NCBI GenBank assembly: GCA_028277625.1
Contig: JANQFW010000099.1
Coordinates: 1 to 49,468 of the forward strand
DNA: 49,468 bases
Reading direction: 5' to 3'
From: Candidatus Gastranaerophilales bacterium
Lineage (GTDB): Bacteria; Cyanobacteriota; Vampirovibrionia; Gastranaerophilales; JANQFW01
Within the stretch, counting starts at the first letter, position 1; each line of letters starts with the position of its first letter. The notes beneath the pieces are model-generated. The model did not search any database and was not told where the DNA came from. It saw only the letters and a program-made list of their open reading frames with translations. Shown here one piece after another: positions 13,632 through 45,762 of this stretch. The position numbers were made by a program, and so were the translations under genes.

Positions 13632-14417
13632 TTATTTAATAAGAATAATAGATTTAACTTTTCTTGCCGAAGCCTCTTTGGCAGAATTAAGAATAAACTT
13701 TATACCTTTCATGTACATGGATGTAGAGCTGCCACCGTCTAGGGCCATTGCAGAGTCTACGTCCATTTGCTTTAAAAGGGTAGATAGCTTTTTTATGGTC
13801 ATAGGATTATCATTGCTTATAGCAATCAATAAAATACTATCCCCCTTTATAGCAATGGCTGATCTTGCGTGCTTTTGTAAAACCCCTGCCGAGCTGCGTA
13901 TAATTTTATTATTTTTTTTTAATACAAAAAATTCTTTCTCTAAATCCATTTTTTCCAACAAAATAGGGCCTGCTTGAATAGAACTAACTAGTGAGCAACC
14001 AGGCTCTGTATGTTCAGAATGATATTTTATTGAATATTTATAAGTATTTGAGCAGTTTAAAATTCTAAATTCTGCTCTATTAAATATTTTATCCAAATAT
14101 TTTTTTAAAACATTATTGTTTATAAGGCTTTCATTTAACCAAGGGTTTCCAATATATCTATTATTTTTGTAAATATAAGAAATAGTCTTTTTATTATTAG
14201 GATCGAAAAAGCCACCATTAATACCAGCGAGTGCATTTGTTTTTTCTACAACGTTTTCTACAGTTTCTAGTGTGTCAGAAAAATATATATCTATGCATTT
14301 GTTGCATATAAGGGTATCTATATCTATTACAAATACGCCTTTTGTTGGTGAATAAAAGTTAATGCCACTCATTTCATCAGATAAAGCCGGTGCTATACCC
14401 ATTACTATAAGTAGCAT
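13632..14417 (-). CDS. Phosphodiester glycosidase family (NAGPA domain) exported protein
   Basis: A 261-aa protein with the NAGPA-type domain: AGINGGFFDP, ARSAIAIKGDSILLIA and MALDGGSSTSMYMKG are the hallmark segments. Family members cleave phosphodiester-linked sugars and are found at bacterial surfaces. The N-terminus from ATG 14417 (MLLIVMGIAPALS) is a short signal sequence without positive charge. The frame extends upstream into KNLSVLLKTITL, which would complete a normal signal peptide but has no standard start codon. The real start may therefore be non-canonical and lie next to the repeat at 14449-14544. It converges with the kinase gene ending at 13615. Confidence 0.82.
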   Translation of the reverse strand: MLLIVMGIAPALSDEMSGINFYSPTKGVFVIDIDTLICNKCIDIYFSDTLETVENVVEKTNALAGINGGFFDPNNKKTISYIYKNNRYIGNPWLNESLINNNVLKKYLDKIFNRAEFRILNCSNTYKYSIKYHSEHTEPGCSLVSSIQAGPILLEKMDLEKEFFVLKKNNKIIRSSAGVLQKHARSAIAIKGDSILLIAISNDNPMTIKKLSTLLKQMDVDSAMALDGGSSTSMYMKGIKFILNSAKEASARKVKSIILIK

Positions 14418-44266: not shown

Positions 44267-44338
44267 TTTTGAGCTATTAATACTTAGTATATTCTTTTAT
44301 TACGAGGATATAGCTTAGTCACTTTAAATATTTTAAAA

Positions 44339-44403
44339 CTATGATAAAATAAAGAAACAAGGACAGGGGTGCGTCAACACCCTTTTCAAAATCCTTATCA
44401 TAG
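44339..44403. terminator. Nested hairpin element, bidirectional terminator candidate
   Basis: CTATGATAA (44339-44347) and TTATCATAG (44395-44403) pair exactly. Inside, GGGTG (44367-44371) pairs with CACCC (44378-44382). On the plus strand TTTTC follows the inner stem; on the minus strand a T-rich TTGTTTCTTTATTTTATC follows. It lies between the amidotransferase gene (+) and the small peptide gene (-) and would suit the 3' end of both. Confidence 0.55.
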
Positions 44404-44404
44404 A

Positions 44405-44521
44405 TTATTTACTTATAAGACGAGTTAGTAATTTAGCTAGCTCGTTTTTACGTGTTATAACAAGGAATATAATTAGTATAATAATCAACTCTTCCTTGTT
44501 TGCTACAAGTAGTAAATACAT
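44405..44521 (-). CDS. 38-aa hydrophobic peptide with very strong ribosome binding site (type I toxin-like)
   Basis: On the minus strand AAAAGGAGGTGGTAGG precedes ATG at 44521, the strongest ribosome binding site in the window. The 38 residues begin MYLLLVANKEELIIILIIFL and end with a charged tail containing R, K and S. One membrane helix covers about residues 12-23. Size, single helix, basic tail, strong site and surrounding hairpins fit type I toxin peptides. The 5' leader can form CCTGAGA...TCTCA...AGG, which would hide part of the ribosome binding site. No known toxin family is recognised, and expression and toxicity are unproven. Confidence 0.5.
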   Translation of the reverse strand: MYLLLVANKEELIIILIIFLVITRKNELAKLLTRLISK

Positions 44522-44625
44522 CCTACCACCTCCTTTTGAGAAAGTTCGATTTTGAGTCGTATCTCTCAGGAAATGATTAAAGGATTCCTAGTCCTTGCTT
44601 AAGGCAATTCTAGCATAAATAAAGC

Positions 44626-44659: not shown

Positions 44660-44689
44660 CTCAAGTAAAATACCTTAAAAAAAATGAAC

Positions 44690-44785
44690 AAAATAAAAAA
44701 GGTTCTTTCCAGAACCACCATCGTTAGCACATTACCAAATTTTCGTTTAATTCTTTTTTCTGTTTCCTTTACCCAATTATATAAA
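44690..44785 (-). ncRNA. Candidate small RNA of about 80 nt
   Basis: On the minus strand TATAAT (44776-44781) is followed about 60 bases later by a compact intrinsic terminator. This is GGTTCT-GGAA-AGAACC (44701-44716) with a GNRA loop, then TTTTTTATTTTG. Because the upstream reductase has its own terminator at 44878-44900, this second one implies a separate short transcript. There is no good -35 box and no ORF with a ribosome binding site. Confidence 0.35.
44701..44716 (-). terminator. Intrinsic terminator with GGAA loop
   Basis: Minus strand GGTTCT-GGAA-AGAACC followed by TTTTTTATTTTG. It is a textbook intrinsic terminator, about 160 bases downstream of another one. Confidence 0.75.
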
Positions 44786-44877
44786 GTAATTGTTTTAATA
44801 AAAATTGCTAATATCTAAAAAAATATAACAAAATATTAAGCAAATGAAAAATTAAATATATTTTTCCAATAAAAGAA

Positions 44878-44940: not shown

Positions 44941-45762
44941 CTATTGTTCCCTAATATTCAAAAATTTAATAAAAAAATCTTCACAAGCCGAAACGCAATA
45001 ACCACAACGTACACACTTTTCATGAATAATTTTAGCCTGCCCATACTCCAACACTAATGCCTCTTGTGGACATGCCCGAATACAATTTTTACATCCCTCA
45101 CACCACGGCTCAATATGAATAACTCGCTTCGAATTTTTACTTAAAGCATTTTTATCAACAGGCAATTTTGAATTTTCCACAACATAACTGTTAAAGTCAA
45201 TCTCCTCAAGCGAATCCATACCAATAGCAAGCGAATCAATATTTTTATTATTAGTAATATAAGATATAGAGCGCAAAATATCCTCAACAAGGTATCCACC
45301 TGCAAGAACCTTCATTGCATATATACCTTTATTATTTCTTTTTGCTTTCTCTATGGCATTTTCCACATCATTTAAACTGCCGTCTTTTATGCCTATGCCT
45401 TTATAATTAATCAAAGGCATAATAACATCTATTTCTTATATTTCAATATTTTTTTTGTTCAAAGATTTAAGGCAATTATCTACGCTTAAAATCATATCAT
45501 CATATGTTTTAGCATAACTTCTTGATGAAATTACTATATCATCAGGCTGTCCCATTTTATTTAAAGCAAGGCCTATCGCTTGATAAGTCTCGTATAACTC
45601 AGCAGTATCCCAAAAACTAATGCCTTTGTTCGTATACGCATGAATTAGCAAATCACATGCCGCATCTAGTTTTAAATTTGCATGATAAACACTTAGTGCT
45701 AATGTACCATAACACAAGCGTGATACTTCTATACCAGACTTTCCTAAAATGTTTTTTTTCAT
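44941..45762 (-). pseudogene. Broken Fe-S aldo/keto reductase (in-frame stop plus internal deletion)
   Basis: The N-terminal piece (45762-45436) opens with KKNILGKSGIEVSRLCYGTL and has FWDTAELYETY with the catalytic Asp and Tyr. It ends at TAA. Five codons later in the same frame the C-terminal piece continues with EIDVI-MPLINYKGIGIKDG and two ferredoxin-like clusters (CEGCKNCIRACP and CVRCGYCVSACE). Intact relatives have about 55-65 residues between these parts, including the catalytic His, and a Lys where this has Arg (SSRS). The gene therefore looks both interrupted and deleted. The C-terminal piece could still be translated from ATG 45420 as a small ferredoxin-like protein. Confidence 0.8.

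Follow-up and report, generated by a model that had tools for sequence, protein, structure and literature searches.

A type I toxin-antitoxin-like element with a 38-aa membrane peptide and a predicted antisense RNA, one copy of a multi-copy family in Gastranaerophilales

The stretch of DNA that we analyzed, 49,468 nt from a Candidatus Gastranaerophilales genome (hereafter, the window), carries one copy of a type I toxin-antitoxin-like element at 44323-44615. On the minus strand, an extended -10 sequence, TGCTAGAAT (44607-44615), with a weak -35, predicts a transcription start at ~44600 and a toxin mRNA of ~250 nt (44350-44600), the ends of which are approximate, as they are placed from the -10 and from the 3' hairpin and its T-rich tract. 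This mRNA would begin with a 5' arm, AAGGACTAGGAATCCTT (44580-44596), able to form a local hairpin or to pair with the arms of the 3' hairpin, and would continue into a leader hairpin (44525-44578) that locks the Shine-Dalgarno (SD) sequence, with the anti-SD TCATTTCC at 44569-44576 and the ribosome binding site AAAAGGAGGTGG at 44526-44537. The ORF that follows (44405-44521; 38 codons, MYLLLVANKEELIIILIIFLVITRKNELAKLLTRLISK) encodes a hydrophobic 38-aa peptide, the putative toxin. Past the ORF lies a 3' hairpin (44359-44396; outer arms AAGGA/TCCTT, inner arms GGGTG/CACCC), which is probably both the terminator of the mRNA and the 3' partner of the 5' arm. On the plus strand, an antisense promoter (44323-44350) comprises the -35 TTTAAA (44323-44328), a 16-bp spacing, and the extended -10 TG-A-TAAAAT (44342-44350). 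Together with an intrinsic terminator within the ORF (44420-44449; ACGAGTTAGT-AATTTA-GCTAGCTCGT, then TTTTT), this conserved promoter predicts an antisense RNA of ~93 nt (44357-44449), the candidate antitoxin, whose predicted fold leaves the middle free between a 5' hairpin and a terminator hairpin.

A first-pass annotation, made from the letters alone, had pointed out the minus-strand ORF of 38 codons and its strong ribosome binding site; both are present, and AAGGAGGTG occurs once in the window versus 0.19 times expected per shuffled window. The leader hairpin that it drew, CCTGAGA on TCTCA-AGG, is real and larger than claimed: UCAUUUCCU also pairs with AGGAGGUGG, so that the entire ribosome site is covered rather than part of it. 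The nested 3' hairpin proposed at 44339-44403 stands in its conserved part (44359-44396); its outermost arm (~44340-44347 with 44396-44403) was not seen in the other copies that we read and overlaps the conserved antisense -10. Three features go beyond that annotation, namely the pairing of the mRNA's 5' and 3' ends, the antisense promoter, which lies partly outside the interval annotated, and the antisense terminator in the ORF.

Two features of the adjoining minus strand are recorded here in their own right. A second, unrelated dispersed repeat (44680-44830) adjoins the element, with ~19 matches in the same genome and many in a genome of the same genus (G001), some copies being spaced ~310 bp apart. 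Its conserved part runs from a promoter-like TACTTTATATAATTGGG over ~90 nt to what resembles an intrinsic terminator, GGTTCTGGAAAGAACCTTTTTT, and it is possibly a multi-copy small RNA gene. At 44941-45762, an in-frame stop near 45421-45435 divides what resembles a single reductase/ferredoxin-type gene into ORFs of 159 and 108 aa, and the gene is probably broken.

The element in the window belongs to a multi-copy family that is dispersed, and often tandem, in genomes of the order Gastranaerophilales. Of 286 genomes of this order, at least 67 match the combined leader covariance model (E <= 0.001; a lower bound, as the filters lose weak matches), in three families and often with several copies per genome. 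The leader models were built stepwise, since a single MAFFT alignment of all leaders misplaced stems between families. Among 386 genomes sampled across the phylum, matches are confined to Gastranaerophilales, an order that NCBI taxonomy places within Candidatus Melainabacteria, beside Cyanobacteriota. An exact-pattern scan of 84,980 named genomes found 33 stretches (among them MFRL01000055, CALVFT010000001, and CACWHC010000014); those with an organism given are all from Gastranaerophilales, Melainabacteria, or Cyanobacteria bacteria, and the remainder are labeled "uncultured bacterium" or "Bacterium." The 2.9-Mb genome of the window itself has several matches, among them partial copies and two copies in tandem on contig C4, and G001 has three copies in tandem. 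A covariance model built from another family's leaders alone recovers the window copy (24.7 bits, E ~0.0004), and a copy from another family, with ~36% peptide identity to the window's, has the same predicted fold (z = -5.86). A weak model match at 14228 (E 0.69) was rejected as a second copy in the window, as that stretch has no ribosome site of this kind. The neighbors at the inspected loci are ordinary chromosomal genes (shikimate kinase, a DnaX-like protein, triosephosphate isomerase, a HIT protein, and an ABC ATPase). Strict patterns, which divergent copies could escape, found no match in viral contigs; thus, a phage origin is without support. Altogether, an ORF of at least 18 codons follows 74 of the 78 distinct leader hits, and 72 copies entered the statistics given below; these copies are not independent, many being close relatives.

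The leader and its lock recur across these copies. In the window, the mRNA (44339-44600) folds at -70.7 kcal/mol (z = -4.57), and none of 200 shuffles is as stable. In an alignment of 41 leaders, which was fitted to the model so that its covariation figures lean towards it, 20 of 24 pairs have changed on both sides, 90.3% of cells pair (72.5% when shuffled), and the covariation score is 0.556 versus 0.246 for shuffled alignments and at most 0.147 for slid structures. The inner loop of the leader (CUnnAAA) is conserved. In computed folds, predicted occlusion of the ribosome site averages 0.84 over copies and reaches 0.98 in the window. Removing the first 26 nt in silico lowers SD occlusion to 0.68; trimming the 3' end in silico leaves it at 0.84 before and after, and the site stays closed.

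The two ends of the mRNA are also complementary. In the window fold, the outer arms of the 3' hairpin bind the opening ~20 nt of the mRNA. Minimum-energy folds of 63 of the 72 copies contain at least nine pairs between the first 26 nt and sequence past the stop codon, versus 20% of dinucleotide shuffles, and each of the 72 is more stable than its own shuffles by over 2 sd (mean z -6.5). In an arm-swap test, which superseded a version whose wide segments let the anti-SD blur the outcome, 5' ends of the AAGGACTAGGAATCCTT type pair at -22 to -23 kcal/mol with their own 3' ends and at -12.9 kcal/mol with those of the other type. Likewise, GGGTAAGCCC-type 5' ends pair at -20 kcal/mol with their own 3' ends and at -11.3 kcal/mol with those of the AAGGACTAGGAATCCTT type. 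The 5' and 3' arms, as compared by computed pairing, switch together between subfamilies. Because each end can instead use these arms to fold into a local hairpin, the local-hairpin and end-to-end states would be exchangeable.

On the opposite strand, beyond the 3' hairpin, copies carry a sigma-70-like promoter (TTGAAA or TTTAAA, 16-17 bp, and often an extended -10 TGnTATAAT or TGnTAAAAT), with the -10 mostly 7-8 nt from the hairpin. This promoter scores higher than 95% of shuffles in ~92% of the 72 copies, compared with 6% for the other strand and 7% for sequence further downstream. Promoter-like sites for the sense mRNA, directly upstream of the leader, pass the same threshold in 44% of the 72 copies (opposite strand, 1%). 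Inside the ORF, an antisense hairpin and T-run resembling an intrinsic terminator (score >= 12) is found in 97% of the 72 copies versus 4.9% of codon-shuffled ORFs, and the same scan on the sense strand gives 19%. These figures come from a wider scan with its own codon-shuffled control, as a short-loop version had missed many copies of the gut family. The coding sequence thus holds a conserved inverted repeat because the antisense terminator lies there, and the toxin codons doubling as the predicted terminator of the antitoxin would be a clean, testable case of one DNA segment serving both strands. Over the 3' UTR and roughly the last 14 codons, the predicted antisense RNA is perfectly complementary to the mRNA. 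We regard the conserved promoter and terminator as the strongest single new result, by which an inferred antitoxin becomes a specific prediction.

These antisense signals also bear on whether the locus might be a cis-regulatory leader, a riboswitch or RNA thermometer controlling a small peptide, next to unrelated antisense signals. The hairpin by itself closes the ribosome site and its inner loop is conserved, as such a leader would have it; however, it has no Rfam match, is a single short hairpin without a junction, and is accompanied by an antisense promoter and terminator in nearly all copies. Of the explanations that we weighed, we find this one the least probable.

The peptides are 21-41 aa long and mostly hydrophobic, with a mean best 15-residue hydropathy of 2.58 (72 copies). 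They measure 35-41 aa in the family to which the window copy belongs and in most copies of a related family, and 21-24 aa in most gut-type copies (e.g., MIFAISEKALIIILIIIIVLSIIF). AlphaFold2 predicts, at moderate confidence (mean pLDDT 75.5), two helices in the 38-aa peptide, at residues 9-22 and 26-37. In four groups, pN/pS is 0.23-0.58, an uncorrected estimate that is partly confounded by the overlapping antisense signals. Four loci (L057 1501-1577, L113 1237-1313, L081 1301-1373, and L070 808-883) share the leader and antisense terminator and encode quite different peptides, as though the RNA frame had stayed constant while its peptide was exchanged or diversified. A non-toxic small regulatory or structural membrane protein, its translation controlled by the leader hairpin and an antisense RNA, would yield the identical anatomy, and the peptides are conserved. 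However, the strong divergence of the peptides at these four loci argues against it, as does the patchy, multi-copy, tandem distribution with decayed copies, a pattern common among type I toxins and rare for a single housekeeping protein. We therefore consider such a protein unlikely and favor a toxin-antitoxin-like module.

Degraded copies stand beside full-length ones. We looked for loss of the reading frame or of the ribosome site in relatives, and full-length relatives keep both. Four partial copies in the window's own genome (C24:4555, C89:58953, C14:380, and C112:37232), read by eye, are without a usable toxin start or ORF and retain the 3' hairpin and the antisense promoter, although the -10 of C112 is degenerate; C24:4555 and C89:58953 retain the antisense terminator too. 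At C89:32809, the leader is the sole part retained. At L025 (1456-1982), L026 (1321-1688), L027 (200-900), and L028 (1383-1901), the toxin start or ORF is lost and the antisense promoter and 3' hairpin are kept; it is possible that such truncated copies are orphan antitoxin RNAs or decay products. L029 (1341-1418; G000:C89, ~32840) has a family leader without the strong ribosome site, upstream of a different ORF beginning MISFGCCYGQGGFWPH. Degraded copies retain the antisense half more often than the toxin start, although such copies are few and detection favors the G+C-rich 3' part. This bias would fit a harmful toxin having been lost.

Dispersed, tandem, and truncated copies might also be expected of a non-coding, MITE-like mobile repeat, in which the inverted repeats AAGGAC...GTCCTT mimic end pairing and the ORF is incidental. 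The element is indeed missing from the orthologous neighborhood in G001, a region that is rearranged and so offers no clean empty site. Against such a repeat, conservation reaches past the inverted ends into promoters on both sides, an ORF follows nearly every leader hit, pN/pS is below 1, and the antisense terminator is one-stranded. We consider a MITE-like repeat very unlikely.

Taken together, the peptide, the locked ribosome site, the end-to-end complementarity, and the antisense promoter and terminator are conserved in sequence and predicted structure. The type I-like anatomy recognized in the first-pass annotation, a small hydrophobic peptide with a strong yet occluded ribosome site, holds across many copies, and conserved copies in relatives are found in many genomes of Gastranaerophilales. 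The plus-strand antitoxin that it had supposed is now backed by a conserved promoter and terminator, the RNA itself being a prediction. We judge it likely that the locus is a chromosomal type I toxin-antitoxin-like module with a 38-aa membrane peptide and an antisense RNA.

As to transcription, RNase III decay, the opening step, and toxicity, we infer the following course. The minus strand would give rise to an mRNA of ~250 nt for the 38-aa membrane peptide, and as this mRNA emerges, its SD would already be locked in the leader hairpin. In the complete mRNA, the 5' end could bind the arms of the 3' hairpin, which would leave the RNA stable and closed. An antisense RNA of ~93 nt would be transcribed from the plus strand, starting just past the 3' hairpin of the mRNA and stopping at the terminator in the toxin ORF. 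By analogy with TxpA/RatA, this RNA probably binds the 3' half of the mRNA and marks it for decay, most likely by RNase III. Should the antisense supply fail, surviving mRNA would be opened and the peptide, by analogy with other type I peptides, would act on the membrane. We suggest only tentatively that this may be an order-wide, multi-copy type I family with a double lock, that is, a standing SD hairpin plus exchangeable 5' and 3' hairpin arms. If so, the activating step would be something other than simple 3' trimming and could involve, for example, a helicase, a standby site, temperature, or cleavage of the leader. Orphan antisense copies might then serve in trans as anti-addiction RNAs.

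Among known systems, aapA/IsoA of Helicobacter and relatives combines a long-distance interaction between the 5' and 3' ends of the mRNA with SD-sequestering hairpins, and 3' trimming activates it (PMC6733600). Compared without direct alignment, the Gastranaerophilales family has no recognized similarity to aapA/IsoA and resembles it in being multi-copy and chromosomal, and in its short helical peptide, SD-sequestering hairpins, and 5'-3' long-distance interaction, which is here predicted (63 of 72 copies). They differ in that the SD of full-length aapA is trapped by a 3' anti-SD, whereas here the strong upstream anti-SD suffices as a lock, and in that 3' trimming frees the aapA SD and does not free this one in silico. 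In hok/sok, the 5' and 3' ends of the mRNA pair (fold-back inhibition), an antisense RNA exerts control, and 3' processing activates (PMC8167048). End pairing and antisense control are both predicted here; however, the predicted antisense RNA covers the 3' end rather than the translation start, and no other minus-strand ORF of at least 25 aa overlaps the toxin start in the window as a mok-like coupled frame would. Since the site stays closed after in silico 3' trimming, the way in which hok and aapA are activated cannot be carried over directly.

In txpA/RatA and bsrG/SR4 of Bacillus, the antisense RNA pairs away from the ribosome site, with RNase III decay for TxpA/RatA and 3' UTR pairing for SR4 (PMC12390103, PMC6563280). 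The present family resembles txpA/RatA in having a convergent antisense RNA over the toxin's 3' end, here predicted over the end of the ORF and the 3' UTR, and differs from both in the added end-to-end pairing of the mRNA. A relationship with RatA itself was rejected: the window's Rfam score (24.9 bits versus a threshold of 49) was not reproduced in 20 loci with other copies and is attributed to chance. Nor did Pfam or NCBIfam connect the peptide with TxpA. In the published literature, type I systems are described as confined to Proteobacteria, Firmicutes, and Tenericutes, apart from one candidate in Microcystis (PMC12390103). That candidate, msoT1/msoA1 of Microcystis aeruginosa, belongs to photosynthetic cyanobacteria and has a toxin of 63 aa with two predicted membrane helices, whereas the present family has peptides of 21-41 aa, is multi-copy, and occurs only in Gastranaerophilales in the phylum search. 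Searches of open-license papers, which cannot prove absence, found no description of a type I system from Gastranaerophilales or Melainabacteria. Pfam, NCBIfam, PHROGs, and Rfam gave no family match to the peptide or the RNA, only irrelevant weak protein matches. The many copies of this design suggest a previously undescribed family that would work like a type I system, with an RNA and a peptide that match no known database family. Such a covariation-supported family in many uncultured Gastranaerophilales would extend type I systems to another lineage, and it yields covariance models for finding further copies.
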